In this document: piece after piece, positions 11,414-50,375 of the stretch
How positions within the stretch are numbered: the first letter of the stretch is position 1
How the letters are laid out: every line of letters begins with the position of its first letter
Made by a program: the position numbers and the translations under genes
Source of the DNA: an uncultured Methanobrevibacter sp.
GTDB taxonomy: Archaea; Methanobacteriota; Methanobacteria; Methanobacteriales; Methanobacteriaceae
Assembly: GCF_902770715.1 (NCBI RefSeq)
Contig: NZ_CACXTS010000003.1
Span: 1-64,000, forward strand
Length of the DNA stretch: 64,000 bases
Reading direction: 5' to 3'
Notes under the pieces: model-generated
What the model was told of the DNA's origin: nothing
Databases searched by the model: none
Seen by the model: the letters and a program-made list of their open reading frames with translations, nothing else

Positions 11414-13054
11414 ATGAACAAACTACAAAAGAACCTTTATAAACTTCTATTAGAGATAGACAACATCTGTAATGAATATGATATAGACTATTTTTTGGCT
11501 TATGGTAATTCATTAGGTGCAATAAGGCATAACAGATTTTTGCCCTGGGATGATGATATAGATATACTCATAACAAGAGAAAACTGGGACAAATTAAAAA
11601 AAGTCATTGAAATAGATGGCGTTCTACCTGAAAATCGTTCTTTTGTCCATAATGACAACACTCTTTACTATGGTAATCTTTTGGCCAGATATGTTGATGA
11701 TAATACAACAAATATCCATATCTCTCAGGCGTTAGCCGCAAAAACCTGTGGCCAACAACTAGAATTTTTCATATTGGATCCAATGCCAACCGGTGAAGAA
11801 GATAAAAAGGAATTCATTGATTTATTTAGAGTATATGCTGATTTAATTTCACCTTACTTTATTGTATCCCAAAATTTGCCTTTAGATGAATGGCAAAAAC
11901 ACTATGGCCATTATAAGCATTATTGTGATAGGATAGATAAAGAGGGTGAAGAAAAGATATTAAATGAACTGGAAAATAAATTGCTCCATTTTAGTGAAGA
12001 TGAATGTGATGAATATCATGTGAGATGGGGATTGTTTACCCATATATTTAAAAAAGAGTATTTTGATGATATTCGCTATGAAACATTTGAAGATCGCCAA
12101 TTTCCAGTTGCAAAAGGTGCCGAATTTATTTTTAGATATTTCTATGGAGATGACTGGATGTATGTTCCTGAAATTTCCAAGCAGAAGACCCATTTTGCTC
12201 TTAGAAATTTGGATGTTCCATTCCATGAGTATACTGATTCTTATCTTGATAGAATTAATCAGGATGAAGTGTTTAAAAAATTCAAGAAAAATAAGCGCAA
12301 CAATATGGACCTGTATTATAGAAGAAATAGACTTGATGAAATTACTGCACAGATACGTGTTAATGTTGAATCAGAACATGTATGCAATTATTTAAATGAA
12401 AAAGAGGAATATTTTGATTCACTATTGAAAGATAGAAAATATGAAGAGATATTGAAGGAGTTCAATGATTTTAGTTCCTTGCAAATGAATGATGATGTTA
12501 AAAAATATAATGTTCATGTTCCAATTTCGGATAAGAATCTCACGACTTTACTTTCATGTTTAATTGCACAAGGGAAATATTATGATGCTGATAAGTTTTT
12601 AAGAATCAGAAAAGTGCAGGATGAACCTATAAATGATGAATTGAATGAAATTTCAGACATTATTGATTTCTGCAGGCAGCTATCCGTCGCTCGCTATGAT
12701 AAGCAGGATATTCAATTAGTCCAATCACTGATAAATGAATATGATTCCGTTTATCCTAATCTATTGGACATATACCGTGCAAAATTATGGATAAAAGATT
12801 TGAATGCAGAATCATCTGAGGATTATAAGGAAATGGACAATCTTTGCAATGAGATATTGGATTTATACCCATTTGATGGGGAAACAATGGCCTATCAAGC
12901 CAAGGCCAAAACAGAATGCGGACTAAAAGAGGAAGGCAATTCATTATATGAAAAGGCAATGTATTACACTAGAAACGGATTTATCTGGCAAAAAATTGAA
13001 GATGAAAGTGGTTTTAGCCGTATTGAAATAGAAAGGGATATTGTTGGGAGTTGA
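11414..13054 (+). CDS. LicD family protein, LicD-A of cassette 1
   Basis: The 546-residue protein starts with a LicD domain: YFLAYGNSLGAIRHNRFLPWDDDIDIL places the catalytic acidic cluster D46-D48, D50, and LEFFILDPMP (about 116-125) is the later acidic motif. LicD proteins transfer phosphocholine or related phospho-groups from CDP-activated donors to glycans. The C-terminal half (about 320-546) is helical and TPR-like and ends in a block shared by all four copies (YPFDGETMAYQAKAKTECG, then WQKIEDESG). The start has no ribosome binding site but lies some 30-40 bases from TTTATTTATAC, so a very short leader is likely. It is followed after three bases by LicD-B. Confidence 0.85.
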   Translation: MNKLQKNLYKLLLEIDNICNEYDIDYFLAYGNSLGAIRHNRFLPWDDDIDILITRENWDKLKKVIEIDGVLPENRSFVHNDNTLYYGNLLARYVDDNTTNIHISQALAAKTCGQQLEFFILDPMPTGEEDKKEFIDLFRVYADLISPYFIVSQNLPLDEWQKHYGHYKHYCDRIDKEGEEKILNELENKLLHFSEDECDEYHVRWGLFTHIFKKEYFDDIRYETFEDRQFPVAKGAEFIFRYFYGDDWMYVPEISKQKTHFALRNLDVPFHEYTDSYLDRINQDEVFKKFKKNKRNNMDLYYRRNRLDEITAQIRVNVESEHVCNYLNEKEEYFDSLLKDRKYEEILKEFNDFSSLQMNDDVKKYNVHVPISDKNLTTLLSCLIAQGKYYDADKFLRIRKVQDEPINDELNEISDIIDFCRQLSVARYDKQDIQLVQSLINEYDSVYPNLLDIYRAKLWIKDLNAESSEDYKEMDNLCNEILDLYPFDGETMAYQAKAKTECGLKEEGNSLYEKAMYYTRNGFIWQKIEDESGFSRIEIERDIVGS

Positions 13055-13057
13055 ATA

Positions 13058-14248
13058 ATGAAAGAAAAAATTGATATTCAATTGGAATTGCTGAGTGAAC
13101 TTAATGAAATTTGTGCCAAAAATGATTTGAAGTACATTTTATTGGGTAAAAGTGCCCTAAATGGATATCAAAATAAGACTTTAAAAAATGGTTCCAGATA
13201 TGTTTCAGTTGCAATGACCAATGGAGATATTGAACGATTTTGTGAAATAATAGAAAGAGATTACAGCGAAAATCGTTATGTGGAAGGAATTTTCAATAAT
13301 CCATTTTTTGTCCCCTTTTATGTAACTTATGGGAATAGGAACACAACGGATTTTTATGTTGCCAACTATAATAAAAACATCAATCATGGAATCCATATTC
13401 GCTTATACCCAATATGCAAATATGCCAAAAAAAAGGGCAGAAAACTAAAATCATGGGATGAAAATCTAACAAAAAATAAGGAATATCGTGAAAGCTTTAC
13501 AGATCCTGTTGAAAATAATTTTTGGAAAAAGAATGTTGAAGCTCGCCTTTATCCTCATTTTGGACGTAATGAACGTTATTATAAGCAATATAAAATATAT
13601 AATGCAATCGATAAATGGGAAGATATTCAGAAATATCTAATTGCTCGTATTGATAAGAAAACCTTCTTTTCTAAAATTTTCAAAAGCACTGAAAAATATG
13701 ATGTTGATGATACTCACATATTTCTGCCTAAAGACACAGATGCCTATTTCACCAGACTATTCGGTAAAAATTTCAGAGACAAGAAAATTGAAAAGCAATC
13801 ACATACAAAAAGGGAAATTGTTGATACCGAGCTTGGCTATGAAGAGGTTATCAATCAAAATTCAAAACTTTTAAAGGAAGCGAATTCGATTAAACAGGAA
13901 TTGGAAATAGAGATATTCCATCAAGATGATGAAAAAGAGATAGCTGCAAAGCTTTGGAAGCTAGTTCAAATGACACATAAGCAAGTTGGATTCAGACATT
14001 ATTTCAGCAATTATAAAACTAATTATTTATTATCAAAAGATTTAAGCAATAAAAATGAATTTAATGAAGTTTATAATGAGTTACGTCCGGTTATTAATAC
14101 ATTGAATAGATATGCTGAGTATGATTTGACCTTTTCGGTAAATCCAAAAATTGATGGCCTAATAAAAGAGGTTTTAATAAAGAAAAACAATATTGAACTG
14201 TTAGATAAGATAGAAATGTTATCTCAAAAAGAATTTTTAATTGAATAA
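13058..14248 (+). CDS. LicD-like protein without acidic motif, LicD-B of cassette 1
   Basis: The 396-residue protein aligns without gaps to the start of LicD-A: LLSELNEICAKNDLKYILLGKSALNGYQNK matches LLIEFDDLCKRYDIKYLLAAGASLGAVRNH. The stretch that is WDDDID in LicD-A is GSRYVS here, so the metal-binding acids are gone. A His-rich segment (NHGIHIRLYPI) and a conserved C-terminal helical domain follow. It begins with ATG at 13058, three bases after the LicD-A stop, with its GGGAG site inside the end of LicD-A, so translation is probably coupled. A non-catalytic partner of LicD-A is my inference; a changed enzyme is the alternative. Confidence 0.75.
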   Translation: MKEKIDIQLELLSELNEICAKNDLKYILLGKSALNGYQNKTLKNGSRYVSVAMTNGDIERFCEIIERDYSENRYVEGIFNNPFFVPFYVTYGNRNTTDFYVANYNKNINHGIHIRLYPICKYAKKKGRKLKSWDENLTKNKEYRESFTDPVENNFWKKNVEARLYPHFGRNERYYKQYKIYNAIDKWEDIQKYLIARIDKKTFFSKIFKSTEKYDVDDTHIFLPKDTDAYFTRLFGKNFRDKKIEKQSHTKREIVDTELGYEEVINQNSKLLKEANSIKQELEIEIFHQDDEKEIAAKLWKLVQMTHKQVGFRHYFSNYKTNYLLSKDLSNKNEFNEVYNELRPVINTLNRYAEYDLTFSVNPKIDGLIKEVLIKKNNIELLDKIEMLSQKEFLIE

Positions 14249-17600: not shown

Positions 17601-17776
17601 AGGATATGAATGTTCATTTCAGTTTCATAATCTGTCTCTACGGCATTATCCACGGGCGCCTGTGAAACGCTATCTGAAATGTTTTCATACGCACAAACTG
17701 ATCCAATCATCAAAAACAATAAAATAAAAATTGAAAAAATTATTAAAATTCCTTTTTTATTTCTAACTAATTTCAT
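14690..17776 (-). CDS. Surface adhesin-like protein with SGNH hydrolase domain and Ig-like repeats
   Basis: The 1028-residue protein has a signal peptide (KKGILIIFSIFILLFLMIGSVCAYE) and a low-complexity Asn/Glu-rich stretch (to about 105). Three fibronectin-like segments follow (about 105-385). The SGNH/GDSL esterase domain has FGDSITYG (about 402), GTND (about 512) and SDNLHYTKYAYSQYG (about 635), giving Ser, Gly/Asn and Asp/His of blocks I, III and V. Four Ig-like repeats of about 85 residues (consensus TYSINATFNGN...LTV) fill 690-1028. No C-terminal membrane anchor is visible. It probably removes ester groups, such as acetyl, from a glycan at the cell surface or outside. Confidence 0.85.
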   Translation of the reverse strand: MKLVRNKKGILIIFSIFILLFLMIGSVCAYENISDSVSQAPVDNAVETDYETEMNIHILKENETHNNNFTDEEIPSDNNGMNESNNLENDSMDNASENCSIILDAPKLIKLQYYPKNDDYYAKLCWVSHIGSTYEILRKDTEDFNVIATVNADSEEMIFYDNIGNDCSYTYSVREIAENNGSKIIYSLYDVEGLRLIASPSVSVDFQNLMANVTWSKIDNVTKYRIFRKLGRDGQFKCIAVVDANQNSYVDYYYNSAKELSSILNSKTFADASFNQLFYTVRACEIKDGSISYGLYLKDGDFNLESPSIVSLNNNTIKWGHVPNADGYSVLKKNENDWEVIGQVNQKNKAVISMLLNDIDYNAYYSVQAYAIKNGEMAYSGFDDGFSLMNYSDDNSNYKILYFGDSITYGSPYKSASSRHIFSIPHRVAQLLGNVYYNPSIPGSTYHDLGQIDGQNILNSKYYRYRICRELVDPVYLGELPGNWEDLDNAKNSEGITNTTIDYYNIVVLAAGTNDYLDNSELGSEDSNDTSTFNGAFNHIMDRIETASRMRVDRGESPIKVVFVDLCYSDRSYNIKIRQNRDVIPNKIGLTLCDYQNALDSQYSKWQNSEYLELFNFKTRDYNIVNEDTCPYLASDNLHYTKYAYSQYGNAFAKYLLEAVFENKNSTLTASDVEMTYDDGSCWNVTLTDDDGNAISNSEIKIELNVNETYTLVTDENGSVSFPINLTPGTYSINATFNGNYMYNSSFVNAMIIINKISTNLSGESLSMFYNDGSCWDVTLSDDSGNAISGVYVNIGVAGKVYSRLTNKNGTASLPVNLAPGTYLINATFDATSKLSSAFINATLTVNKAILTLYGEDLIMSYKDGSSYKINLTDCNGNPVANANIKFKIGESCYDVKTDSKGIASLPINLYLGNYTIQASIYDSKYELANITNSITVNTDKINITAKDVNMTYRDGTSYEVQLVDEEGKVIQLSGQIVKITIKNKTYNIKTDARGIAKLAINLSAGNYSITSKYNNKVTINNITVNAQ

Positions 17777-18178: not shown

Positions 18179-19243
18179 ATGAGTCATTTATTTACAATCG
18201 GACCCGTTGAAATGTTTCCGGAAACTTTAGAAATTGGTGGAAAGCAAGTACCCTACTTCAGAAATGATGAATTTTCACAGATTGTTTATTCTGCCAGCGA
18301 AAGTTTAAAAAGGTTATTGTTCACTGAAAATGGAGAGATTATTTTATTAACCTGCTCTGGAACTGGAGCTATGGAAGCGACTGTAATGAACTGCTTTACA
18401 AAAGAGGATAATCTCATTGTAATTGATGGAGGTTCCTTTGGTCATCGGTTTGCCGAAATCTGTGACGTTCATGAAATTCCCCATACTGTCATTAAACTTG
18501 ATAAGGATGATATATTAACCCGTGAAATGATTGACGAGCTAATTAAAGATAATAAATTTACAGGCGTTCTTGTAAACTTGGATGAAACTTCAATTGGGAA
18601 ATTATATGATCTTGAAATGCTCGCAGATGTTTGCAAAGAAAATGACTTAATATTAGTAGTTGATGCAATAAGTGCTTTTTTAGCAGATGAAATTAATATG
18701 GATAAATACGGCATTGATGTTGTAATTTTAAGTTCTCAAAAAGCTTTATCATTGGCTCCAGGTTTGTCAATTGTAGCATTAAGCGAAAAAATATTAGAAA
18801 GAATTAAAGATATTAATTCAAAATCTGTTTACTTTGATTTTAAAGATTATCTTAAAAATGGTGAAAGAGGCCAAACTCCTTTTACTCCGGCCATAAGAGT
18901 CATTATTGAACTTGAAGACATGGTTAAACGTATAGAAGATAAAGGCATTGAAAATATAATTAATGAAACTGGTGAACTTGCAGCTTATTTCAGGAGCAGA
19001 GTAAAAGAAATTGGATTAGATTATCCAGACTATCCTTTGTCAAATGCTGTTACTCCAGTCATATTTCCAGATGAAAACGCAGATGTTATTTATAGGGAAT
19101 TAATAGATAAATACGGTTTAACTGTTAATCCGAGTGGTGGAGATTATGCAAAAACAATGTTTAGGGTTTCTCATGTTGGAAAACATTCTAAAGAGGATAT
19201 AGACAATTTAATAAATGCAATGGATGAAATAATTAATTCTTAA
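18179..19243 (+). CDS. Class V PLP-dependent aminotransferase, cassette 2
   Basis: The 354-residue protein has the class V (alanine-glyoxylate / 2-aminoethylphosphonate transaminase-like) fold. It shows TIGPVEMFPE at the N-terminus, TCSGTGAMEA (about 58-67), VDAISAF with the PLP-contacting Asp at 162, and SSQKALSLAPG with the PLP Lys at about 188. The ATG has a strong GGAGG site. LicD-A follows 16 bases after the stop, so it belongs to the LicD operon. A close paralogue is at 37782-38852. It probably makes an amino-containing precursor of the group that LicD transfers; the substrate is not known. Confidence 0.85.
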   Translation: MSHLFTIGPVEMFPETLEIGGKQVPYFRNDEFSQIVYSASESLKRLLFTENGEIILLTCSGTGAMEATVMNCFTKEDNLIVIDGGSFGHRFAEICDVHEIPHTVIKLDKDDILTREMIDELIKDNKFTGVLVNLDETSIGKLYDLEMLADVCKENDLILVVDAISAFLADEINMDKYGIDVVILSSQKALSLAPGLSIVALSEKILERIKDINSKSVYFDFKDYLKNGERGQTPFTPAIRVIIELEDMVKRIEDKGIENIINETGELAAYFRSRVKEIGLDYPDYPLSNAVTPVIFPDENADVIYRELIDKYGLTVNPSGGDYAKTMFRVSHVGKHSKEDIDNLINAMDEIINS

Positions 19244-19259
19244 AAAATGAGGGTTTCAA

Positions 19260-20924
19260 TTGTCTAAAATGAACAATTTACAAAAAAATCTCTATGGATT
19301 ATTAATAGAATTTGATGATTTGTGCAAAAGATATGATATTAAATATCTATTGGCAGCAGGCGCTTCATTAGGTGCTGTTAGAAATCATCGTTTCATGCCT
19401 TGGGATGATGATATCGATCTGTATATTTCTAGAGACAATTGGAATAAATTGAGGCATATTTTAGAAACTGAAGAGAATGTTCTTCCAGAAGGAAGGTCAT
19501 TTGTATATAAAGAGAATACTCCATACTATTGCAATCCAATTCCAAGATATGTGAATAATCAAACCACTACAATTTATGTTTCACAATCATTACCCGCAAA
19601 AGCATGTGGGCAACATCTTGAACTGTTTATTTTTGATCCAATGCCTTTAGGAGAAGAAGCTAAAGAGGAATATTTGGATTTATTGCATGTTTATACTGAA
19701 TTATTATCCCCATATTTTGTTGTAAATAAAAATGCTTCCCTTGAAGATTGGAAAAGACATTATGAGTTATATGAACATTACTGTAAGAGGGTCGATGAAG
19801 AGGGTGAAGAGAAAATCATTAAAGAATTAGAAGAAACATTACAGCAATATTCACCTGAAGATAGTGACCAATATTGCATGCGTTGGGGAATCAAGAATTA
19901 TATTTATGACAAGGAACACTTTGAACTTGAAAGCGAGATGGGTCAATTTGAAGATGGCGAGTTTCCTATAGGATATTATCCTGAAGGTATTCTTAGAGTT
20001 GCATATGGTGACAGTTGGATGTATGTTCCTGAATATGAAGAACAAGTTGTTCATGGAGGATTGAAAAATTATAAAATTCCCTTTGAAGAATATACTAGCC
20101 GTTATCTTCCAAAAATGAATCGTGAGTCTGTTTTTGAGAAATATAAAATAAACAAACGCAATAATGCCAGTGTTTTTTATCAAAGAAGAGAAGTGGACAT
20201 GTTAGTTGCTAAAGAAAAAGTTCTTGTTGGATCAATGCATGTTATTAGAGATTTGAAAGGAAAAGAAGATTATTTACGTTCATTACTTAATAATAGAGAG
20301 TATGATGCTATTTCTGAAAACTTAAGAAGTTTTTTGGAATTGCAAAAAACAAAAGATGTAATAAAGTATAATATTCTTGTACCCATTTCTGATATGAATC
20401 TGGCAACATATTTATTTAGCTTGATTGGGCAAGGGAAATATTATGAGGTTCAAATATTTTTAAATGTTCGAGAAATGCAGGATAAACCTTTAAATGACGA
20501 ATATAATCAAATTAAAGATATGATATCAATATGTAGGGAGATATCCATAGCTCGTTATGATAAAAAGGATGTGAATTTGGTTCAATCACTTATAGACAAA
20601 TATGAAAAAAAATACCCTGATTTATTAGATATTTATCGTGCAAAGATTTGGGTTATGGAAAGCACTGCCAATTCTATTGATGACTATAAAGATATTGATA
20701 GTCTCTGCAATCATATCTTATCATTATATCCTTTTGATGGAGAGATAATGGCATTTCAAGCCAAAGCAAAATTGGAATGCGGGCATGAAGAAGACGCAAT
20801 GAAACTTTATAATGAATCAATTAATAATACTAGAAACGGTTTAATCTGGCAAAAAGTTGAAGACGAATCAGGAATCAGCCGTATTGAAATCGAATCTGAA
20901 TTGATTAAGATGATTGATGATTAG
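19260..20924 (+). CDS. LicD family protein, LicD-A of cassette 2 (TTG start)
   Basis: The 554-residue protein has the LicD domain with GASLGAVRNHRFMPWDDDID (acidic cluster D49-D51, D53) and LELFIFDPMP, then the conserved TPR-like C-terminal half (YPFDGEIMAFQAKAKLECG). The start is TTG at 19260, with GAGGG six bases upstream, and it aligns with the TTG starts of cassettes 3 and 4; the first ATG, three codons in, is too far from that site. It is the second gene of an operon: aminotransferase, LicD-A, LicD-B. Confidence 0.85.
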   Translation: MSKMNNLQKNLYGLLIEFDDLCKRYDIKYLLAAGASLGAVRNHRFMPWDDDIDLYISRDNWNKLRHILETEENVLPEGRSFVYKENTPYYCNPIPRYVNNQTTTIYVSQSLPAKACGQHLELFIFDPMPLGEEAKEEYLDLLHVYTELLSPYFVVNKNASLEDWKRHYELYEHYCKRVDEEGEEKIIKELEETLQQYSPEDSDQYCMRWGIKNYIYDKEHFELESEMGQFEDGEFPIGYYPEGILRVAYGDSWMYVPEYEEQVVHGGLKNYKIPFEEYTSRYLPKMNRESVFEKYKINKRNNASVFYQRREVDMLVAKEKVLVGSMHVIRDLKGKEDYLRSLLNNREYDAISENLRSFLELQKTKDVIKYNILVPISDMNLATYLFSLIGQGKYYEVQIFLNVREMQDKPLNDEYNQIKDMISICREISIARYDKKDVNLVQSLIDKYEKKYPDLLDIYRAKIWVMESTANSIDDYKDIDSLCNHILSLYPFDGEIMAFQAKAKLECGHEEDAMKLYNESINNTRNGLIWQKVEDESGISRIEIESELIKMIDD

Positions 20925-20991: not shown

Positions 20992-22323
20992 ATTTTAACC
21001 AAACATGAAATTCAATTAAAATTATTAAAGGAAATTGATTTAATTTCATCCGAAAATAATCTGCATTATTTTTTAATAGGTTCTAATTCACTTAGTGCTT
21101 ATAATAATCATACCATTGATACAGGTGCAAGAATGGTTGCTGTTGTAATGCCTTCAGAAGATATTGAAATCTTTTGTAAAATTATTAAAAAAGATTATAA
21201 GGCAGATAGGTATGTAGAAAAGAGTTCTAATGATAAAGAAAATCCGCTTTTCCATATTGCCTATGGAGATAAAAATACGGCAGATTTTATTCTTACAAAT
21301 TTAAATACTCACAAACAGCATGGCATTCGTGTTCGTATTTATCCGATGCGTAAAACAATTATGGATGAAATTGATTTAGAGGAACATTCAAGCATCAGAA
21401 CTGAAATGAAAGCAAGTTTCAATAAGTTCATTAGAAAACACAATACAAATAGGGATAAATTTTATTTCAGATATTTCTTAAATTTTGTTAATTTTGGATA
21501 TAATTTAATTTATAATTCTTATAACTATTTCAAAAATAGATATCCTAAAGCAATTATTAAAGAACATTTATTTGATATTTTTGGTAGAGATTCCCGGTTT
21601 ACTGATTCCATGATTGGACTTTATGAATATATGTATTCAATCATCAATAAAACCTACTTTTTCTTTAAGAATCTGAAAAAACACCCGTTCATTGAAAATT
21701 GGGATGATTTAGAAAATTATAATGATGTTCAAATCATCAACCGGAAAATAACTGCTGAAGCATTTGATGAAGTTAATAAGGTCAATGTAGATGGGATTGA
21801 TGTTAATTTATTAGGCCCTAATTTTTTCTCAGAGGTTTTTGGAAAAAATTATGAAAATAGGAAAATCAAAATCAAAGCCCCTAGAGCTTCTGCAATTTTG
21901 GATACTGAAACAAGTTATGAAAAGATTATTAAAGAACGAAAAGAAGCAATTAAAAAAATTAAAGTTATCCAAAGGGAAATCAGGAAAAAAAGATTTGAAG
22001 TAATGGAAGAGACAAGTGTTGTAAATAATGTTTTCAATCTTGTTAAAATGACAGATGCCCAGATTAAAGTTCAAAAATTCTTTGAGAGACATAGGGACTA
22101 TCTGTTTTCTTTAGATATGGATGATGAAGAGGAATTTATAGAATTGTATGATCGATTGACTCCTACCATAAATTATCTAAGAAGATATTCCGAATATAAT
22201 ATGACCTTTTCAATTGATGAAGAAGCTGATTTATTAGTTAAAAAAGTAATGTTGAAAACGGGTGAAGATGAGTTAGTAGATAAATTAGAAGAATTGTCTA
22301 AAATGGAATATTTCATCGAATAA
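20992..22323 (+). CDS. LicD-like protein without acidic motif, LicD-B of cassette 2 (apparent ATT start)
   Basis: Starting at ATT the product has 443 residues, exactly the length of the cassette 4 paralogue. Its start ILTKHEIQL lines up with MKTKQDIQL, the ATG-started N-terminus in cassette 3, and the region before the first ATG (21133) codes for conserved LicD-B sequence (HYFLIGSNSLSAYNNH). The first ATG is therefore internal. The WDDDID position reads GARMVA. Compared with the short LicD-B type there is an extra helical, aromatic-rich segment (about 150-220). A probable partner of the LicD-A just upstream. Confidence 0.75.
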   Translation: MLTKHEIQLKLLKEIDLISSENNLHYFLIGSNSLSAYNNHTIDTGARMVAVVMPSEDIEIFCKIIKKDYKADRYVEKSSNDKENPLFHIAYGDKNTADFILTNLNTHKQHGIRVRIYPMRKTIMDEIDLEEHSSIRTEMKASFNKFIRKHNTNRDKFYFRYFLNFVNFGYNLIYNSYNYFKNRYPKAIIKEHLFDIFGRDSRFTDSMIGLYEYMYSIINKTYFFFKNLKKHPFIENWDDLENYNDVQIINRKITAEAFDEVNKVNVDGIDVNLLGPNFFSEVFGKNYENRKIKIKAPRASAILDTETSYEKIIKERKEAIKKIKVIQREIRKKRFEVMEETSVVNNVFNLVKMTDAQIKVQKFFERHRDYLFSLDMDDEEEFIELYDRLTPTINYLRRYSEYNMTFSIDEEADLLVKKVMLKTGEDELVDKLEELSKMEYFIE

Positions 22324-33868: not shown

Positions 33869-34092
33869 CTACATGTATAGCAATTAATTTACTTTATTAT
33901 TTTTTCTATTACTAATTAATTTAATTATATTTTACTTATTATAATATTACTTTTAAAATGATTACTATTAAAATAATCAGCCATCTTTTTATTTATTATC
34001 ATAGCAATTTTTATCCTAAAATCCCAACAATTAATTATATATCTAATAAATTGAAAAATTATTATTGAGAAATTAATTTTATGAGGGATAAA

Positions 34093-34884
34093 ATGATAGT
34101 TGAATGCAATAACGAAGACATCACTTCTGTTTTTGATTATATCGGTGAAGATTACGGGAAATGTTTATACATTTACATTGACTTAAAAAAATACGGCATC
34201 GATGATGAAAACTTTAACGTTTGGATTCAATATAATGAAAATGAAGATATCTGCGCTATAATCAGCGAATATTATGGAGGAATCCAAATATACAGCAAAG
34301 AAGAGGATTTCCTAGTTGATGAAATTGTTGATTTCATTAAGCAAAAAGATCCTAATGTTTTCTTTTCAATCAAACCGAATATCGATAAACTTAAAGTTCA
34401 TTTTCCTGAATATGAACAGGAAACAGGCATTGTTGGTGAATTGAAAGAACTCAAATATCCGCCAAACATTAAAGCATATTCAGCACCACTTGATGAACTC
34501 AAAGAAATCGTTGAAATAATCGCTGAAGATGAAGACATTGGAAAGCCATACGGTTTTGATTCATTATATGAACAGTACTGCGAAAGAAAAAAAGATAATT
34601 TCGGACGTAATTTTGTTTTACGTGATGATGATACTCATGAAATCATTTGTCATGCCGGAACATATGCCGAACTTACAGAATTGGCTGTAATCGGAGGAGT
34701 AATCACTTCAGTACCATACAGAGGCAAAGGATTTTCTAAAGAAACATTGTCATCCCTATGCAGTGAACTGAAATCCGAAAACAAAAGAATCTTTTCATTC
34801 TATTATATACCCCCTGCTGAAAGAATGCATGTTGGTGTAGGTTTTGAAAAGATAGAAGACTGGTCAAAATTAGCAAAAATGTAG
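34093..34884 (+). CDS. GNAT-fold acetyltransferase, two-domain type (paralogue of 51525-52307)
   Basis: The 263-residue protein has an N-terminal domain of about 110 residues (YIGEDYGKCLYIYIDLKKYGI) and a C-terminal GNAT domain with ELAVIGGVITSVPYRGKGFSKETLSSL (acetyl-CoA loop, about 195-222) and GVGFEKIEDW. The ATG at 34093 follows GAGGGATAAA. Its paralogue with the same layout lies near cassette 4, and this one converges with LicD-B of cassette 3. A link to the LicD product, such as acetylation of an amino group, is plausible but only by position. Confidence 0.75.
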   Translation: MIVECNNEDITSVFDYIGEDYGKCLYIYIDLKKYGIDDENFNVWIQYNENEDICAIISEYYGGIQIYSKEEDFLVDEIVDFIKQKDPNVFFSIKPNIDKLKVHFPEYEQETGIVGELKELKYPPNIKAYSAPLDELKEIVEIIAEDEDIGKPYGFDSLYEQYCERKKDNFGRNFVLRDDDTHEIICHAGTYAELTELAVIGGVITSVPYRGKGFSKETLSSLCSELKSENKRIFSFYYIPPAERMHVGVGFEKIEDWSKLAKM

Positions 34885-34907: not shown

Positions 34908-36110
34908 TTATTCTACAAAATACTTTTTTTTGGATATCTTTTCAATTCTATTAATCAAATCCTCTTTTTCAAGTTTAACCAATACCCTTTTAATCAAATC
35001 CATTGATTTAGGTTCAATCGGGAAAGTCATTCCATATTTAGAGTACCTATTCAAGCTTCTGATAACAGGTTCCAATTCATCATATAACTCTTCAAACTCC
35101 TGTTCATCATCCAAATCATAAGTCAACAATCTATCTATATTCTCTTCAAAGAATTCCTCATATTCCAGTTCCTTGCCGGTCATCTTAACTAGATTCCAAA
35201 CCTTCTTAACGGTTTCCTTTTCATGGCTGACTTTTCGCCTTCCCCAAACAAGCTCCTCATGTGTTGATCTGATTTCCGTTAAGATAGATTGTGTTTCGCT
35301 TAGAATTTGTTCATAACCTATTTCTGTATCAACAATTGCACGTTTTCTTGGAGGTTTAGGTTTAATTTTAATTTCTTTGAAGTCCTCACCATATATTTCG
35401 CTAAATAATGCATCTGAATCTTTAAGCAAGTTAACTTCAATGCCATCAACTTCAACTCTTTGAAAGTCAAGAAAATGTTTGCTGCTAACAGTTTTATTGA
35501 TAAATCGGACCTTTGAATAATTCTGAATATCTTCCCATTTGTCAATTGCAATATTCCTTTTTACATTATTATAATATCTTTTTGCGCCGCCTGTTATTTT
35601 ATATGCAAAATTTAAAGCGCCAAATCCTGCTTTCATATACCAGAATTTTTTATTTTCTATCCTTTTGCTTGAAAATTTACGGAATTCCCTTTCTTTGGAT
35701 AATCTTGAATCCCATCCAACAATCGGTTCACCATCAAGAGTTTCAGCTTTAAAGATAGGATATAACCTTATGTGAATTCCATGATGGATATTACGGTTTA
35801 AGGCAACCATATGAAAATCAGTGGTATTTGTATTCCCGTAAGTTACATAAACGGGTAAGAAATTAGGATTATTGAAAATTCCTTCAACGTATCGGTTGGA
35901 ATTGTTTTGCTTTTCAATTATCTGGCAAAACTTATCAATATCTCCTTGTGCCATTCCAACGGCAACAATTCTGGAAGCATTTCTAATTGTATTATTAAGA
36001 TAAGCGTTCAATGAATTAAGTCCAATTAAAAAATATTTCAAATTATTATCTTTACAGATTTCATCTAATTCCTGAAGCAATTCTAATTGAATATCCTGCT
36101 TAGTTTTCAT
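34908..36110 (-). CDS. LicD-like protein without acidic motif, LicD-B of cassette 3
   Basis: The 400-residue protein starts MKTKQDIQLELLQELDEIC and contains YFLIGLNSLNAYLNN; the WDDDID position reads ASRIVA. HHGIHIRLYPIFK and a C-terminal helical block (YSKYGMTFPIEPK) are shared with the other LicD-B proteins. I choose the ATG at 36110: GGAG lies seven bases before it, inside the end of LicD-A, and the two genes overlap by 11 bases (translational coupling). It is the last gene of a four-gene operon with LicD-A, the aminotransferase and the cytidylyltransferase fusion. Confidence 0.8.
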   Translation of the reverse strand: MKTKQDIQLELLQELDEICKDNNLKYFLIGLNSLNAYLNNTIRNASRIVAVGMAQGDIDKFCQIIEKQNNSNRYVEGIFNNPNFLPVYVTYGNTNTTDFHMVALNRNIHHGIHIRLYPIFKAETLDGEPIVGWDSRLSKEREFRKFSSKRIENKKFWYMKAGFGALNFAYKITGGAKRYYNNVKRNIAIDKWEDIQNYSKVRFINKTVSSKHFLDFQRVEVDGIEVNLLKDSDALFSEIYGEDFKEIKIKPKPPRKRAIVDTEIGYEQILSETQSILTEIRSTHEELVWGRRKVSHEKETVKKVWNLVKMTGKELEYEEFFEENIDRLLTYDLDDEQEFEELYDELEPVIRSLNRYSKYGMTFPIEPKSMDLIKRVLVKLEKEDLINRIEKISKKKYFVE

Positions 36111-37764
36111 TGTTAAACTCCTCAATTAAATCACGTTCAATATCTAAACGACTAATTCCAGATTCATCTTCAACCTTTTGCCAGATTAAACCGTTTCTAG
36201 TATTGTGAATGGCTTTATCATATAATTCCATTGCTTCTTTTTCAAAGCCACATTCCATTTTGGCTTTAGCTTGAATCGCCATTATTTCACCATCGAATGG
36301 ATATAATGACAATGCCTCTTCACATAAATCATTTATAATTTCATAATCCGGTTTAGATCTTGCATCATTCTCTTTAACCCATATCCTTGCACGGAAACTA
36401 TCAAGCAGGTCAGAATATTTGCTTTCATGTTCATCTAAAATAGATTGGACCAGACTACAGTCTTTTCTGTCATAGCGTGCAACAGACAGTTCTCTGCAAT
36501 ACACAACTAAATTCTCTATTTCAATCAGTTCATCGGACAATGGCTTATCCTGCAGCTTACGAATGCTTAGATACTTATTGACAGCATAATATTTTCCCTG
36601 TTCGATTAGTCCAAACAACAATGTTGCAAGATTTTTATCGGAAATTGGAACCATGAAATTGAATTTCATGACATCAGGAATTAATTGTATTGAATTATAT
36701 ATTTCAAATTCTTCAATTAATTTTTCATAATCTTTATTTTTTAATAGGGAGCGTAAATAATCCTCTTTTCCTTCAAGACTTTTTTTAACATGAATGGAAC
36801 CAACGGCGACTTTTTCCTTTGCAACCAACATGTCAACCTTCTTACGAGTATAGAACATGCTTGCGTTATTACGTTTATTCTTGATAAATTGTGGAAATAC
36901 TGTTTCCCTATTGATTTTAGGAAGGTAACGTTCAGTATAATCAGTGAAAGGTCTTGAATCTTTTAACCCATTATGAGATATTTGTTCTTCAAATTCAGGA
37001 ATATACATCCAGCTATCTCCATAAGCAACCCTGAGGATGCATTCAGTATTTGTGCCGATAGGGAATTTTCTTCCTTCAAATAGGCCAGGTTCGCCTTCTT
37101 CAAAAAGTTCCTTATCATAAATGTAATTTTTAATTCCCCAGCGCATGCAATATTGGTCGCAATCTTCTATATCATATTGCTGCAATGTTTCTTCCAATTC
37201 TTTCAGCACTTTTTCTTCGCCTTCCTTATCGACTCTTTCACAATAATGAACATATAAGTCATAATGCCTTTGCCAATCTTCCAGAGAGGCATTTTTATTT
37301 ACAATAAAATAAGGGGATATCAATTCAGTATATACATGCAATAAGTCAAGATATTCCTCTTTTGCCTTTTCTCCTTTTGGCATTGGATCAAATATGAATA
37401 ACTCTAAATGTTGTCCGCATGATTTGCCCGGAAGAGCTTGTGAAACGTATATTGTGGTTGTGTCGTTTTTGATGTATCGCGGAAGTGGATTACAGTAATA
37501 CTTGGTATTTTCCTTATAAACAAGAGACCTTCCTTCAGGCAGGAAATCCTCTTCTGTTTCATAAAGATGTCTAAACTTATTCCAATTATCTCTAGTGATA
37601 TATAAATCTATATCATCATCCCATGGAAGAAAACGACGATTTCTGACAGCTCCCAAAGATGCACCGGCCGCCAAAAGATATTTAATATCATGCTTTTTGC
37701 AGATTTCATCGAATTCTATTAGCAATTGGAACAGATTTTCCTGTAATTCATTCATTTGATTCAA
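36100..37764 (-). CDS. LicD family protein, LicD-A of cassette 3 (TTG start)
   Basis: The 554-residue protein has the LicD domain with GASLGAVRNRRFLPWDDDID (D49-D51, D53) and LELFIFDPMP, then the TPR-like C-terminal half with YPFDGEIMAIQAKAKMECG and WQKVEDESG. The TTG at 37764 has GGAGAG seven bases upstream, whereas the next ATG is 16 bases away, so TTG is preferred. It lies 17 bases after the aminotransferase and overlaps LicD-B. Predicted to transfer a phospho-linked substituent from a CDP donor to a surface glycan, by family. Confidence 0.85.
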   Translation of the reverse strand: MNQMNELQENLFQLLIEFDEICKKHDIKYLLAAGASLGAVRNRRFLPWDDDIDLYITRDNWNKFRHLYETEEDFLPEGRSLVYKENTKYYCNPLPRYIKNDTTTIYVSQALPGKSCGQHLELFIFDPMPKGEKAKEEYLDLLHVYTELISPYFIVNKNASLEDWQRHYDLYVHYCERVDKEGEEKVLKELEETLQQYDIEDCDQYCMRWGIKNYIYDKELFEEGEPGLFEGRKFPIGTNTECILRVAYGDSWMYIPEFEEQISHNGLKDSRPFTDYTERYLPKINRETVFPQFIKNKRNNASMFYTRKKVDMLVAKEKVAVGSIHVKKSLEGKEDYLRSLLKNKDYEKLIEEFEIYNSIQLIPDVMKFNFMVPISDKNLATLLFGLIEQGKYYAVNKYLSIRKLQDKPLSDELIEIENLVVYCRELSVARYDRKDCSLVQSILDEHESKYSDLLDSFRARIWVKENDARSKPDYEIINDLCEEALSLYPFDGEIMAIQAKAKMECGFEKEAMELYDKAIHNTRNGLIWQKVEDESGISRLDIERDLIEEFNNEN

Positions 37765-37781: not shown

Positions 37782-38852
37782 TTACTCTTTTGAATTTATA
37801 ATTTCATCTATTGCTAAAATTAGTTCCTCTGTCTTTTCAATGGAATGATTACCTACATGTGAAACTCTAAACATGGTTTTTGCAAAGTCCCCTCCGCTTG
37901 GATTTACAGTAAATCCATAATCATCAATTAATCTTCTGTATATCACATCGGCATTTTCATCAGGAAAAATTACTGGTGTGACTGCATTTGATAGGGGATA
38001 TGACGGATATTCCAAACCAATTTCATTAATTCTTTTTCTGAAGTATAATGCTATTTCTTTAGTTTCAGCAATGATATTATCAATGCCCTTTTCCTCTATA
38101 CGTTTAACCATGTCTTCAAGCTCAATAATTAACCTAACAGCTGGAGTGAATGGGGTTTGACCTCTTTCAGCATTTTTCAAATGATCCTTAAAATCAAAAT
38201 AGATGGATTTGGAGTCGATTTCATCAACTCTTTTCAACATTCTTTCACTCAAAGAGACAACTGATAAACCAGGAGCCAATGATAAAGCCTTTTGTGAACT
38301 TAATATAACTGCATCAATTCCATATTTGTCCATGTTAACTTCATCTGCTAAAAAAGCGCTGATTGCATCAACGACAAAAACAAGGCCTTTTTCCTTACAT
38401 AATTCTGACAACATGTTGATATCATATAACTGTCCGTTTGAGGTTTCATCCAAATTAACAAGCAATCCTGTGAATTCTTCATCACCGATTACCTCATCAA
38501 TCATGTCTCTTGTCAATGTTATGCCATGCTCCACTTTAACCGCTTTGAATGGAATTTCATGAACCTCACAAATTTGAGTAAATCTGTGGCCGAAGGAACC
38601 TCCCTCAATGACTAGAAGTTTGTCCTCTTTTGTAAAACAGTTCATGATAGTTGCTTCCATGGCACCAGTACCAGAACATGTCAGTAGAATAACCTTGCCC
38701 TTTTCATTGAATAGTAGCCTGTTTAATCCCTCACTAGCGGATAAAACCACTTGTGAAAATTCATCATTTCGGAAATATGGCACTTGCTTTCCACCAATTT
38801 CCAATGTTTCAGGGTACATTTCTACAGGCCCTATTGTAAATAAATGACTCAT
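37782..38852 (-). CDS. Class V PLP-dependent aminotransferase, cassette 3
   Basis: The 356-residue protein is a close paralogue of 18179-19243, with the same TIGPVEMYPETLEIGGKQVP start, TCSGTGAMEA, VDAISAF and SSQKALSLAPG (PLP Lys at about 188). The ATG follows GGAG. It sits between the cytidylyltransferase fusion (24 bases upstream) and LicD-A (17 bases downstream), which ties amination to CTP activation and transfer. Substrates such as an aldehyde- or keto-phosphate are possible; nothing in the sequence fixes one. Confidence 0.85.
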   Translation of the reverse strand: MSHLFTIGPVEMYPETLEIGGKQVPYFRNDEFSQVVLSASEGLNRLLFNEKGKVILLTCSGTGAMEATIMNCFTKEDKLLVIEGGSFGHRFTQICEVHEIPFKAVKVEHGITLTRDMIDEVIGDEEFTGLLVNLDETSNGQLYDINMLSELCKEKGLVFVVDAISAFLADEVNMDKYGIDAVILSSQKALSLAPGLSVVSLSERMLKRVDEIDSKSIYFDFKDHLKNAERGQTPFTPAVRLIIELEDMVKRIEEKGIDNIIAETKEIALYFRKRINEIGLEYPSYPLSNAVTPVIFPDENADVIYRRLIDDYGFTVNPSGGDFAKTMFRVSHVGNHSIEKTEELILAIDEIINSKE

Positions 38853-38876: not shown

Positions 38877-40181
38877 TTATTTTTCAGCCTTTTTAACGTC
38901 TTCCAATATTTCCACGATTTTTATGGATTCATCTTCAAAGATACTTTTTGAATTAATTCGATTATTTGATAACATTGATGAAAGTTCCCTTATCAGGTAT
39001 TTGAATCCATTGCCTTCAAAGTTTGTAGTGTACAATTGAACATCACTTGATCCGGGAGTATGCAATTCAAAGCTTTTACTTCTCCACCAATCTCCCTTCA
39101 TGCGAATTGTACCTTTTGTTCCTATGATTTCCAATTGATTATCAACACGAATAGTGTTACCGACATTAATTACTGCTCTTCCATTAGGATAAACGAAATT
39201 CATTGAAGCAAATTCAATGTTATCACCGTCTTTGGATACATTGAAATCCGCTTTTTCATAATCCAAACCCATAATCTTCAACATTGGCAATAGGGTATAA
39301 ACACTTAAATCGTAAAACAGGTTGCTACGACTTTCATCATTTTTTGAAATTGAACAATTGAAGCTCAATATATCTCCAATCAATCCTCCCTGTGTCATCC
39401 ACAATAGTTGATTGAAAACATAAATATGAACCATTTTAATATTTTCCATTAAAATTAAATTCTTTTCCTTGGCTAATGAGATTAATTCTTTTATTTCATC
39501 TGATTTGAATGTTGCAGGAGGGTCATATAATACATGTTTTCCAGATTCTAACGCTTGGCGAATATAATCATATCTCTTTGAAGTAGAGCAACGGACATAA
39601 ATAATATCTGATTCCTCGACCATATCCATATAACTGTCGAATGAATTTTCTATGGCATATTTTTCCTGTAAACTTTCTAAAACATTGTCATCATCAGAGC
39701 ATACATTTTTCACTTCAAAGCCATTTACCAATTTTGCTTCCTTAACTATTTGGTTATCGTCTACTATATCACATATCATCCCAATATCATAATGGCCAAA
39801 TGTCTCTTCTCTAATTTGAGTGCTGGAAATGCCTTTTGTCCTCTCCAAATATATCATTTCACAGTATCTTGACAAATGGTCGAATTTGCCCCTCCAGTCA
39901 TCTCCAATTACAAAGGCATCAATATTATATTTAATTATATCTCCAATCTTCTGACCGAGATATTCCTCAACGATAATTTCATCTGCAAAACCAGTTTTTA
40001 AAACATTTTCGATTCTTGTTGCCAGTGAATCATGAACATTTAATTTTCCACGCCCAATGTCATAATTTTCACCAGTGACACCAACAATTAAATAATCACC
40101 ATGCTCCTTTGCCCTTTTTAAGATATTATAATGACCTATATGAAACAAATCGAATGTTCCATATGTAATAATTTTTTTCAT
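38877..40181 (-). CDS. Cytidylyltransferase (TagD-like) fused to Gfo/Idh/MocA-type oxidoreductase
   Basis: The 434-residue fusion has residues 1-127 as a nucleotidyltransferase of the glycerol-3-phosphate/ethanolamine-phosphate cytidylyltransferase type, with YGTFDLFHIGHYN (HxGH at 14-17) and ERTKGISSTQIRE (about 113-125). The rest is a Gfo/Idh/MocA-like dehydrogenase: IYVRCSTSKRYDYIRQAL, GKHVLYDPPAT and MENIKMVHIY. The catalytic EKP Lys is replaced (DPP), so the second domain may have changed activity. I use the ATG at 40181, which has GAGAGGAC in front. First gene of the cassette 3 operon. Confidence 0.85.
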   Translation of the reverse strand: MKKIITYGTFDLFHIGHYNILKRAKEHGDYLIVGVTGENYDIGRGKLNVHDSLATRIENVLKTGFADEIIVEEYLGQKIGDIIKYNIDAFVIGDDWRGKFDHLSRYCEMIYLERTKGISSTQIREETFGHYDIGMICDIVDDNQIVKEAKLVNGFEVKNVCSDDDNVLESLQEKYAIENSFDSYMDMVEESDIIYVRCSTSKRYDYIRQALESGKHVLYDPPATFKSDEIKELISLAKEKNLILMENIKMVHIYVFNQLLWMTQGGLIGDILSFNCSISKNDESRSNLFYDLSVYTLLPMLKIMGLDYEKADFNVSKDGDNIEFASMNFVYPNGRAVINVGNTIRVDNQLEIIGTKGTIRMKGDWWRSKSFELHTPGSSDVQLYTTNFEGNGFKYLIRELSSMLSNNRINSKSIFEDESIKIVEILEDVKKAEK

Positions 40182-40347
40182 TTTTTGTCCTCTCATCATC
40201 AATGTAAAAGAAAATTTAACTTAATTATATTTTAGTAATTAAAACTATTAAAAGTTACTCTAAAAAATAGCAAAATAACATCTTTAGAAATGAATAAAAA
40301 ATAATGTTTTTATTTAATTATAAAAAAAAGAAAATAAGAATAGGTAA

Positions 40348-47257: not shown

Positions 47258-48589
47258 TTATTCGATGAAATACTCTTTTTTAGACAACTCTTTTAAGGTA
47301 GAAACCAATTCCTCTTCACCGATCTTAATTAATACATTCTGAATTAATAAATCAGCTTCCTCATCAATTGAAAAAGTCATACCCTCTTGAGAGTATCTTC
47401 TTAAAGTGTTTATAATAGGACGCAGTCTATTATACAATTCCATAAATTCTTCCTCATTATCCATATCCAGTGAGAACAAATACTTCCTACGCCTTTTAAA
47501 GTAATTTTGATATTTTATTTGAGAATCAGTCATTTTAACAAGCTTAAAAATCTTGTTAACAGCAGTTGTTTCTTCTAGTACTTCATATCTTGTTTTCCTA
47601 ATCTCTCTTTGGATAGCTTTAATTTCATTGATGTTATCTTTTCTTTCATTGAGAATCTTTTGATAGCTTGTCCCAGTATCTAAAACCGCTGTAGATTTCA
47701 GCGGCTTGAATTTGATTTTTCGGTTCATATAATTTTTTCCGAAAACCTCTTCATAAAAATCAGAATTGGGTAAATTCAAATCAATTCCATCGACTTCCCA
47801 TTTATCAACACCCTCAAATAATTCAGTATTCAAATCCCTATTAATAATTTGGGCATTATCGTAATATTGAAGCTCATCCCAAGTTTCAATAAATGGATGT
47901 TTTCTTAAATTCTTGAAATAGAAATATGTGAAGTCTAAAGAGGCAAAAACATAATTATATATCGTGATTATGGTATTGGTTAAGTAAGAATCCCTACCAA
48001 AAATATCATATAATCTTTCTTTTACAATTGCTTTTGGATACCTGCGAACAAAATAATTTTTAACCTTAGCAAGATGATTATGTACAAAACGGATGACCTT
48101 TAGACCATATCTCACATAGAAAGCTTCCCTATAAAGCAAATTTTTCCTAATGAAGCTATTGAAACTAATTTTCATTGAAGTATAAAAGCTGATTGGCTGT
48201 TCCGTATCCTCGATATTGATAATGGACTTACGAATAGGATAAATACGAACAATAATTCCATGGGGTTTAAGAATATCCAGATTTGATAGAACAAAAAAGG
48301 TAGAGTTCCTATCACCATAAGAGACGAAAAATGATGAATCTTCTTTATCATTTACGCTTCTTTCGACATATCTGTCCTTATCATAATTCTTTTTCACGAT
48401 TTTACTGAATATTTCAATATCCTCCGAAGGCATGGCTACTGCTACCATCCTTGATCCATTGTCAATGGTATGGTCATTGTAAGCACTGAGAGAGTTAGCA
48501 CCAATTAAAAAATAATGTAGGCCATTACGGGAACAAATACTATCTATCTCTTTTAGTAACTTCAATTGAATTTTATGCCTTGTTTGAAT
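47258..48589 (-). CDS. LicD-like protein without acidic motif, LicD-B of cassette 4 (apparent ATT start)
   Basis: Read from ATT at 48589 the product has 443 residues, the same as LicD-B of cassette 2, and begins IQTRHKIQLKLLKEIDSIC, aligned with MKTKQDIQLELLQELDEIC of cassette 3. AGGGGGA lies six bases upstream. The only other in-frame candidate, TTG at 48565, has no ribosome binding site, and no ATG or GTG lies between the upstream stop (48614-48616) and it. GSRMVA replaces WDDDID. It is the long LicD-B type with an extra helical, aromatic-rich segment. Confidence 0.75.
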   Translation of the reverse strand: MQTRHKIQLKLLKEIDSICSRNGLHYFLIGANSLSAYNDHTIDNGSRMVAVAMPSEDIEIFSKIVKKNYDKDRYVERSVNDKEDSSFFVSYGDRNSTFFVLSNLDILKPHGIIVRIYPIRKSIINIEDTEQPISFYTSMKISFNSFIRKNLLYREAFYVRYGLKVIRFVHNHLAKVKNYFVRRYPKAIVKERLYDIFGRDSYLTNTIITIYNYVFASLDFTYFYFKNLRKHPFIETWDELQYYDNAQIINRDLNTELFEGVDKWEVDGIDLNLPNSDFYEEVFGKNYMNRKIKFKPLKSTAVLDTGTSYQKILNERKDNINEIKAIQREIRKTRYEVLEETTAVNKIFKLVKMTDSQIKYQNYFKRRRKYLFSLDMDNEEEFMELYNRLRPIINTLRRYSQEGMTFSIDEEADLLIQNVLIKIGEEELVSTLKELSKKEYFIE

Positions 48590-48613: not shown

Positions 48614-48715
48614 TTATCTGACAAAATGCACCCTATCAAAGATACTGTTAATTTCCACACATGAATCATCGATTTCATGATGCAATTCAGCAAACAGCGC
48701 CAGTTTACTTTTCAT
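48614..48715 (-). pseudogene. 33-residue remnant of a LicD-B N-terminus
   Basis: The ATG at 48715 overlaps the end of LicD-A by 11 bases with GGAG seven bases upstream, exactly the geometry of the LicD-A/LicD-B overlap in cassette 3. The peptide starts MKSKLALFAELHHEIDDSC, which matches MKTKQDIQLELLQELDEIC at M, K, K, E, L, E, D and C without gaps. It then diverges and stops after 33 residues. I read it as the leftover start of an earlier LicD-B copy that was cut off. It could still be translated. Confidence 0.6.
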
Positions 48716-50375
48716 TATTCAACTCCTCAATCAATTCAGCTTCCATATCCATACGACTAATTCCTGATTCATCTTCAACTTTTTGCCAAATTATTCCATT
48801 TCTAGTGTGGTCAACTGATTTTCTATAAAGTTCCATAGCCTGTTTTTTCTGACCGCATTTGGTTTTAGCGTTAGCTTGAAAAGCCATTGTCTCTCCATCA
48901 AATGGATATAATGATAAAACATGACTGCATAATTCATCAATCATCTTATAATCATCAATAGATTCTGCGGTATTTTCCATAATCCAGATTCTTGCACGAT
49001 ATATGTCAAGTAAATCATCATATGTATCTTCATACTCATCAACAAGAGATTGAACCAAACTAACATCTTTCAGATCATAGCGCGCTACTGAAATCTCATG
49101 ACATATTGAAATGATATCCATAATTCTATTCAATTCATCATTTAAAGGTTTGTCTTGAGCTTCACGGGCATTCAAGTATTTGGAAGCATCAAAATATCTT
49201 CCCTGTTCAATCAAACTGAACAAATATGTTGCAAGATTCTTATCTGAAATTGGAGCTAAAATATTATACTTAAACACATTTTCAATATTCTGCAAATCGG
49301 TGAAATTTCCAAACTCCGCAGATAATTCATCATAATTCTTATCTTCAAGAAGAGAACGCAAATAATCATCCTTACCGTCCAAATCTTTAGATACTTGGAC
49401 TGACCCTACAGCAACAATCTCTTTAGCAATCAACATTTCAACTTTTCGCCTATTATAATATACCTTAGCATTATTACGTTTGTTTATTTTGCATTTCTCA
49501 AAAATAGATTCTCGATTTATTTTTGGAAGATAACGACTAGAATATTCTTCAAATGGAAGAAAATCATTTCTTACTGCATTATGAATAAGTTGTTCTTCAT
49601 ATTCTGGAATGTACATCCAACTATCGCCATAAGCTGACCTAAGAAGACCTTCGGGACGATAACCCAGTGGAAATACTCCATCTTCAAACTGGCCCATTTC
49701 ACTTTCAAGTTGAAAATGTTCCTTATCATAAACATGCTTATTATATCCCCAGAACACACAGTACTGATCACAAAATTTCGGAGAATATTGCTGCAGTTCA
49801 TCTTCCAGCTCCTTTAGAACCTTTTCTTCTCCTTCCTCATCAATTCTTTGGCAATAATGCTCATACAATTCATAATGTTTTTCCCATTCCTCAAGTGTGG
49901 CTCTTTTGTTCACGACAAAATATGGGGATAATAACTCTGTATAGACATGCAATTTATCCATATATTCTTCCTTAGCCTTTTCACCTAAAGGCATCGGATT
50001 GAAGATAAAGAATTCTATTTGATGTCCGCATGATTTTGCAGGCAATGACTGAGAAACATAAATTGTAGTTGTTTCAGTATTTACATATCTTGGAAGAGGA
50101 TTACAATAATATGGAGTATTTTCTTTATATACCATTGAACGTCCCTCAGGAAGAACGTTTTCTTCAGTTTCTATGATATGTCTCAGTTTATTCCAGTTGT
50201 CTCTAGTGATAAACAAATCAATGTCATCATCCCATGGCATGAAACGACGATTTCTGATTGAACCTAAGCTAGCACCACCTGCCAACAAATAATCAATATC
50301 ATACTTTTTACAGATTTCATCCAATTCAACCAGTAACTGGTATAAATTTTTTTGTATCCTATTCAACTTATACAA
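48705..50375 (-). CDS. LicD family protein, LicD-A of cassette 4 (TTG start)
   Basis: The 556-residue protein has a LicD domain with GASLGSIRNRRFMPWDDDID (D49-D51, D53), and LDPMP is FNPMP here (IEFFIFNPMP), so one acidic residue of the second motif is Asn, unlike the other copies. The TPR-like C-terminal half is conserved (YPFDGETMAFQANAKTKCG). The TTG at 50375 has GGAG eight bases upstream. No aminotransferase precedes it directly; the acyltransferase at 50439 is 63 bases upstream in the same direction. Confidence 0.85.
   Translation of the reverse strand: MYKLNRIQKNLYQLLVELDEICKKYDIDYLLAGGASLGSIRNRRFMPWDDDIDLFITRDNWNKLRHIIETEENVLPEGRSMVYKENTPYYCNPLPRYVNTETTTIYVSQSLPAKSCGHQIEFFIFNPMPLGEKAKEEYMDKLHVYTELLSPYFVVNKRATLEEWEKHYELYEHYCQRIDEEGEEKVLKELEDELQQYSPKFCDQYCVFWGYNKHVYDKEHFQLESEMGQFEDGVFPLGYRPEGLLRSAYGDSWMYIPEYEEQLIHNAVRNDFLPFEEYSSRYLPKINRESIFEKCKINKRNNAKVYYNRRKVEMLIAKEIVAVGSVQVSKDLDGKDDYLRSLLEDKNYDELSAEFGNFTDLQNIENVFKYNILAPISDKNLATYLFSLIEQGRYFDASKYLNAREAQDKPLNDELNRIMDIISICHEISVARYDLKDVSLVQSLVDEYEDTYDDLLDIYRARIWIMENTAESIDDYKMIDELCSHVLSLYPFDGETMAFQANAKTKCGQKKQAMELYRKSVDHTRNGIIWQKVEDESGISRMDMEAELIEELNNEK

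Follow-up and report, generated by a model that had tools for sequence, protein, structure and literature searches.

Paired LicD-family genes in Methanobrevibacter: a predicted phosphotransferase and its probable pseudoenzyme partner

Introduction

The LicD/FKRP family includes the human muscular-dystrophy protein FKRP. This protein is a CDP-ribitol phosphotransferase (PDB 6KAL/6KAM) in which each of four aspartates (Asp360, Asp362, Asp364 and Asp416) is reported to be essential (PMC6965139). A related protein is Cps7C, the capsule transition transferase of Actinobacillus pleuropneumoniae, which combines TPR with an FKRP-like NTase domain and transfers Gro3P from CDP-glycerol (PMC11666461). 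In pneumococci, two LicD proteins, LicD1 and LicD2, serve one pathway with a CDP-activated small group (PMC13385700), and aminoethylphosphonate tailoring clusters (PntC, PhnW-type) bring together an aminotransferase, a cytidylyltransferase and a LicD-like gene (PMC6697681).

The cell walls of rumen Methanobrevibacter were reported to contain phosphate at levels as high as those of teichoic-acid walls, with the polymer unidentified (PMC2812497), and the open literature searched did not mention LicD together with Methanobrevibacter. This study examines a stretch of 64,000 nucleotides (hereafter the window; positions 1 to 64,000 of contig NZ_CACXTS010000003.1, assembly GCF_902770715.1) from an uncultured Methanobrevibacter sp., in which tandem pairs of genes designated LicD-A and LicD-B are found.

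LicD-A/LicD-B pairs in the window

The window contains four LicD-A/LicD-B pairs, two on each strand, with A always located 5' of B (Table 1). All four pairs of the original prediction are present in the fixed order that it described, and the coupling by an overlap or a three-base gap that it noted for two cassettes corresponds to A-to-B distances of -11 nt (pair 3) and +3 nt (pair 1); the distances in pairs 2 and 4 are +67 and +115 nt. Two of the predicted cassette spans (18179-22323 and 34908-38852) do contain a pair, but each also takes in an upstream PhnW-like aminotransferase, and the start of LicD-B3 is corrected from 36125 to a conserved ATG at 36110. Pairwise identity among the window copies ranges from 53 to 71% for the A proteins and from 33 to 62% for the B proteins.

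Table 1. Coordinates of the paired genes, their cassette neighbors and related genes with a predicted ATT start; positions refer to the window unless another locus is named.
Feature	Position	Strand	Length	Description and basis
LicD-A1	11414..13054	+	546 aa	LicD/FKRP-type NTase domain and C-terminal helical repeats; Pfam LicD E=2.5e-23
LicD-B1	13058..14248	+	396 aa	Predicted pseudo-LicD; alignment with other B proteins
LicD-A2	19260..20924	+	554 aa	Pfam LicD E=2.9e-20
LicD-B2	20992..22323	+	443 aa	Predicted AUU start after AAGGAGG
LicD-A3	36100..37764	-	554 aa	LicD domain, long helix and TPR-like solenoid; Pfam LicD E=2.7e-25
LicD-B3	34908..36110	-	400 aa	11-nt overlap with A3; FKRP is top fold match
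LicD-A4	48705..50375	-	556 aa	Pfam LicD E=6.2e-21
LicD-B4	47258..48589	-	443 aa	Predicted AUU start after GGGGG
PhnW-like class V aminotransferase, cassette 2	18179..19243	+		Aminotran_5 E=3.4e-21; TIGR03301 PhnW-AepZ 169 bits, below cut-off 360.8; PLP motif SSQK
PhnW-like class V aminotransferase, cassette 3	37782..38852	-		Profile searches
TagD-like cytidylyltransferase and Gfo/Idh-like domain fusion, cassette 3	38877..40202	-		CTP_transf_like E=1.4e-16; GFO_IDH_MocA E=3.3e-13
GNATa, conserved partner, convergent to cassette 3	34081..34884	+	267 aa	Weak Sat3 match E=0.0021
Membrane acyltransferase (Acyl_transf_3), cassette 4	50439..51467	-		Pfam E=1.9e-34
GNAT acetyltransferase (GNATb), cassette 4	51525..52313	-		Pfam GNAT_acetyltran E=1.3e-12
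HisC/CobD-like class I aminotransferase, cassette 4	52382..53443	-		TIGR01141 hisC 245.5 bits, below cut-off 276.55
ATT-start B gene, G092	L073 9264-10595	-		
ATT-start B gene, G092	L073 4046-5380	+		
ATT-start B gene, G022	L078 about 1724-3055	-		

Distribution and duplication of the pairs

Profiles built from the A and B proteins of the window were searched in 139 genomes of the family, with LicD-A counted at E <= 1e-140. Nineteen of the 139 genomes, belonging to two genera, contain a total of 29 LicD-A copies, and those same 19 genomes contain 29 LicD-B copies, each directly downstream of A and on the same strand; neither A without B nor B without A was found in the 139 genomes. Because all 29 A genes are followed by B, the pairing is not attributable to chance. 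A broader B profile identified zero B genes outside the two A/B genera among 152 genomes of the phylum. Lone B homologs, whose common occurrence had been anticipated as an argument against a two-protein unit, are thus absent from both sets. Beyond the phylum, B was sought by one peptide pattern, which could miss more distant homologs and which, in species genomes, matched records of Methanobrevibacter and a single MAG from horse faeces labeled 'archaeon'.

The proposal that the pair was duplicated and diversified is supported by its copy number, which is four in the window, three in genome G092 and one to three in other genomes. The divergence of A and that of B are correlated (Mantel rho 0.81, 0 of 2000 permutations, with species relatedness not corrected for). 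The LicD-A of G030 is cut off at a contig end.

Five additional LicD matches in the host genome do not adjoin B, three of them on contig C2 and two, in longer fused proteins, on contig C12. The two long LicD proteins of contig C12 (519 and 534 aa; L011 5817-7376 and 11646-13250) have a C-terminal LicD domain and are located among glycosyltransferases, without B.

LicD-A and LicD-B proteins

LicD-A1 to LicD-A4 match Pfam LicD (PF04991) at 73.8 to 90.2 bits (cut-off 22.6). In the AF2 model of A3 (pLDDT 82.7), the LicD domain is accompanied by a long helix, and the C-terminal half is entirely helical; fold and profile matches are to FKRP and TPR proteins. Acid sites D49, D51, D53 and E121 of A, which are the counterparts of FKRP D360, D362, D364 and D416, are kept in all 25 A proteins examined, as DDDE in 24 of them and DDDD in one; LicD-A1 has DDDE. 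The DDDhD motif is likewise present in 11 of 11 ordinary LicDs of the family. From its sequence and modeled fold, LicD-A is predicted to be an active LicD/FKRP-fold transferase with an intact acid set and a C-terminal TPR-like solenoid. The conserved C-terminal domains that were at first described as unknown can now be placed, that of A as the TPR-like solenoid and that of B as a long helix with short helices, the latter seen in the AF2 model of B3 (pLDDT 87.0).

The LicD label in the original names of both proteins holds for A, which exceeds the Pfam cut-off, whereas B is a diverged homolog without the catalytic acids and not an equivalent LicD. Pfam LicD has no match in any of the four window B proteins, of which B3 has no Pfam match at all, and matches 4 of 26 B proteins weakly (best E=6e-4); in addition, a PHROGs search returned no match, and B had no meaningful match among PDB sequences. 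Aligned by HHalign, 26 A and 26 B proteins match with a probability of 96.9 (E=1.5e-10), and in the fold search with B3, 13 FKRP chains lead the PDB matches with probabilities of 0.98-1.00. The fold assignment leans on this probability and on the profile match because the Foldseek E-values are weak (best 0.018) and the TM-scores low (<0.3). Taken together, the profile-profile and fold comparisons support B as a highly diverged LicD homolog. It is too diverged for an A-B tree, and its origin may lie in A or in a short LicD.

The full four-acid set was found in 0 of 25 B proteins, and 17 of the 25 have no acid at all; for this count the sites were placed by eye in a motif register without gaps. 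LicD-B1 keeps zero catalytic acids, a six-member B clade keeps one or two, and the G020_c B keeps the fourth only; a conserved Arg takes the place of the fourth acid in 17 of 25. The B of G026 (L085 5188-6381) reads D-E-D-I-E at the motif position, with D, D and E at the first three sites and Ser at the fourth, possibly as an intermediate or by chance. Since the complete acid set is absent in 25 of 25, B is probably a pseudoenzyme partner and not a second transferase; its candidacy as an ordinary LicD was ruled out by the loss of the catalytic motif.

A coiled coil between the long helices of the two proteins is not claimed, since the B helix has heptad-like periodicity (3.46, p=0.003) and the A helix lacks it (p=0.67). 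No strong hydrophobic segment indicating membrane anchoring was found in the window A/B proteins (maximum KD19 1.41).

Start codons and the role of LicD-B

Five B genes (B2, B4, both G092 orthologs and the G022 homolog) have no ATG, GTG or TTG at the conserved N-terminus. In these genes, an ATT located approximately 7-8 nt after a GGAGG or GGGGG Shine-Dalgarno sequence aligns with the ATG of B1 and B3. Over the 141 nt that separate this ATT from the following ATG, comparison of B2 with its G092 ortholog gave a dN of 0.046 and a dS of 0.53, and third positions account for 12 of the 16 differences; upstream of the ATT, gap-free alignment of the two fails except at the Shine-Dalgarno sequence. 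The N-terminal codons of B2 after the ATT appear to be under purifying selection, and we infer that B2, B4 and the three relatives initiate at ATT (AUU), with a weaker case for B4 because it also has a TTG eight codons downstream. All five genes with this ATT are located at least 51 nt behind A (70 nt for G092_4, with the start at 4046), and among the ATG-start B genes most either overlap A or begin no more than 22 nt behind it, the exception being G049_a (60 nt, ATG).

The uncoupling of the AUU-type B genes from A could reflect control of dosage, and B has kept the LicD fold without the acids; both would fit a regulator or antagonist of A, such as a decoy binding the CDP-donor or acceptor, in place of a stable subunit. 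This role is rather improbable, however, as A and B overlap or lie close together in most pairs, which points to balanced co-translation. It is likewise unlikely that both proteins are active transferases working independently on successive sites in the manner of pneumococcal LicD1/LicD2, with an unconventional active site in B. The FKRP-like fold of B, the D-D-E at the first three sites of the G026 protein and the precedent of the tandem LicD1/LicD2, which decorate two GalNAc units (PMC13385700), would all be compatible with such an arrangement, and the Arg that replaces the fourth acid could mean repurposing; but the LicD family depends on metal for its chemistry, nearly all B proteins are without the metal-binding acids that FKRP needs, and B is never found without A.

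Cassette neighbors and donor genes

Several genes recur beside the pairs in relatives, including the TagD-like cytidylyltransferase-Gfo/Idh fusion, PhnW-like and HisC-like aminotransferases, two acetyltransferase-like genes, an ornithine-cyclodeaminase-like gene and a bacterial-type NAD glycerol-3-phosphate dehydrogenase. Close versions of the fusion (at least 71% identity) are found in 16 of 19 A/B genomes compared to 3 of 120 others (Fisher p=2e-15), and close PhnW-like aminotransferases in 11 of 19 compared to 0 of 120 (Fisher p=1e-11), with genome relatedness not corrected for in either test. The A/B genomes without a close fusion are G049, G022 and G031; in G049, two pairs adjoin an IspD-like cytidylyltransferase and a zinc dehydrogenase, a combination reminiscent of CDP-ribitol synthesis. 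Of the 139 genomes, 10 carry the HisC-like aminotransferase, and 8 of these 10 also have A/B. GNATa, for which acetyltransferase similarity is weak and no Pfam match was found, adjoins A/B in G017, G018, G020, G036, G061, G066 and G092.

The cassette 3 fusion scores 113.9 bits against the TagD model TIGR01518, below the cut-off of 165.4, and carries GTFDLFHIGH and RTKGISST as its versions of the HxGH and RTxGISTT motifs. Its Gfo/Idh-like domain has DPP where the family has EKP, and DPP or DSP is present in 10 of the 11 close fusion sequences checked, with no pattern match in G054. Because the usual EKP lysine is replaced, a redox step is doubtful, and the domain may not be a normal dehydrogenase. 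Distant versions of the fusion and the aminotransferase are adjacent in many genomes without A/B, and since a single ordinary LicD lies nearby in several of these, it is suggested that the A/B pair replaced a single LicD. The A/B pair thus belongs to a larger putative CDP-headgroup cassette.

Other large proteins are also encoded near the pairs. A large secreted protein (14690-17776, minus strand) has GDSI, GTND and DNLHY motifs (SGNH-hydrolase-like) and repeats, and its homologs adjoin A/B cassettes in G036, G061 and G054. Next to cassette 3 is the gene of a large surface protein (40348-42957, minus strand) that has repeats and a transglutaminase-like end; in G092 and G066, homologs of this protein are encoded close to A/B cassettes.

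It is very doubtful that the cassettes attach phosphonates, with the PhnW-like aminotransferase forming 2-aminoethylphosphonate that would be CMP-activated and transferred by LicD-A. Bacterial aminoethylphosphonate clusters do contain LicD-like genes (PMC6697681), a cluster of the host genome combines a PEP-mutase/cytidylyltransferase fusion with LicDs, and in G020 a PEP-mutase cluster adjoins the A/B cassette. However, the cassette aminotransferase reaches less than half of the PhnW-AepZ cut-off (169 of 360.8 bits for TIGR03301) and 111.1 of 400.8 bits for TIGR02326 (PhnW), the cassette cytidylyltransferase is TagD-like, and PEP mutase is missing from the near-complete genomes G017 and G061, although both carry A/B and the aminotransferase. 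Phosphonate decoration as a general role was ruled out by the presence of PEP mutase in only 6 of 19 A/B genomes. The cluster of the host genome, on contig C2 (L012 5632-16322), encodes the PEP-mutase/cytidylyltransferase fusion, a TPP enzyme, a DUF6564 protein and three LicDs, and is a probable phosphonate decoration locus.

Proposed mechanism and significance

B has diverged more quickly than A (mean column identity 43% versus 63%), and in G031 stops or frameshifts, real or from assembly error, break the B gene (G031:C6:67042-68123) while the neighboring A is intact. It is nevertheless hardly credible that B is a decaying duplicate without function, since 28 of 29 copies match as a single frame that is open or almost so (the few stops being near the ends, in ranges overrunning the frame), B is always kept beside A, and B2 compared with its G092 ortholog (dN 0.081, dS 0.474, dN/dS about 0.17) indicates maintenance by purifying selection.

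The preferred reading, to which we assign a probability of roughly 60%, is that each cassette encodes a two-protein phosphotransferase, in which a catalytic A and an obligate non-catalytic B would act on CDP-(amino)polyol phosphate and a surface glycopolymer. It is based on the homology, order and co-occurrence of A and B, the loss of acids, the selection on B2 and the neighboring genes; complex formation, the donor, the acceptor and the role of B are deduced. The TagD-like cytidylyltransferase would make a CDP-polyol, to which the cassette aminotransferases would add an amino group and which the GNATs would probably acylate; the chemical identity of this donor is a guess from gene names. LicD-A would take the CDP-activated small (amino)polyol phosphate and transfer the phosphate-linked group to a cell-surface glycopolymer or glycoprotein glycan, with its TPR-like solenoid making protein or polymer contacts. 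LicD-B, a paralog without the metal-binding acids, would be its obligate partner as a stabilizer, acceptor holder or specificity subunit, and duplicated pairs with different donor genes could produce different decorations. A more specific version of this model is tentative: A and B would be an enzyme/pseudoenzyme transferase in which the dead LicD picks the acceptor, pair duplication and donor-gene swaps would diversify the phosphate decorations of the wall, and the dosage of one B clade might be set by its conserved AUU start.

The pairing is real and stronger than first stated, with B recast as a pseudoenzyme, and it falls within a known family. The A/B cassettes are concrete candidate genes for the surface phosphate groups of such methanogens. 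In addition, an always-paired dead LicD beside an active LicD offers a testable case of a pseudoenzyme subunit.

Comparison with known systems

The cassettes share the combination of an aminotransferase, a cytidylyltransferase and a LicD-like gene with the aminoethylphosphonate tailoring clusters, but differ from them in having a TagD-like cytidylyltransferase and, in most A/B genomes, no PEP mutase. The pneumococcal LicD1 and LicD2 resemble A and B as two LicD proteins in one pathway that uses a CDP-activated group; however, both are described as phosphocholine transferases, whereas B lacks the catalytic acids. Cps7C, with TPR joined to an FKRP-like NTase domain, provides a related architecture with measured activity, but its TPR is N-terminal and it works with Cps7A and Cps7D, with no pseudo-LicD partner described in the available excerpt of the source. 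FKRP is the top PDB fold match of B and among the top matches of A, and it shares with A the NTase-fold catalytic domain, the acid set and, as predicted here, a CDP-polyol donor. In contrast to the A/B pair, FKRP is a homotetramer with an N-terminal stem domain and no dead paralog encoded alongside, whereas A carries a C-terminal TPR-like solenoid.
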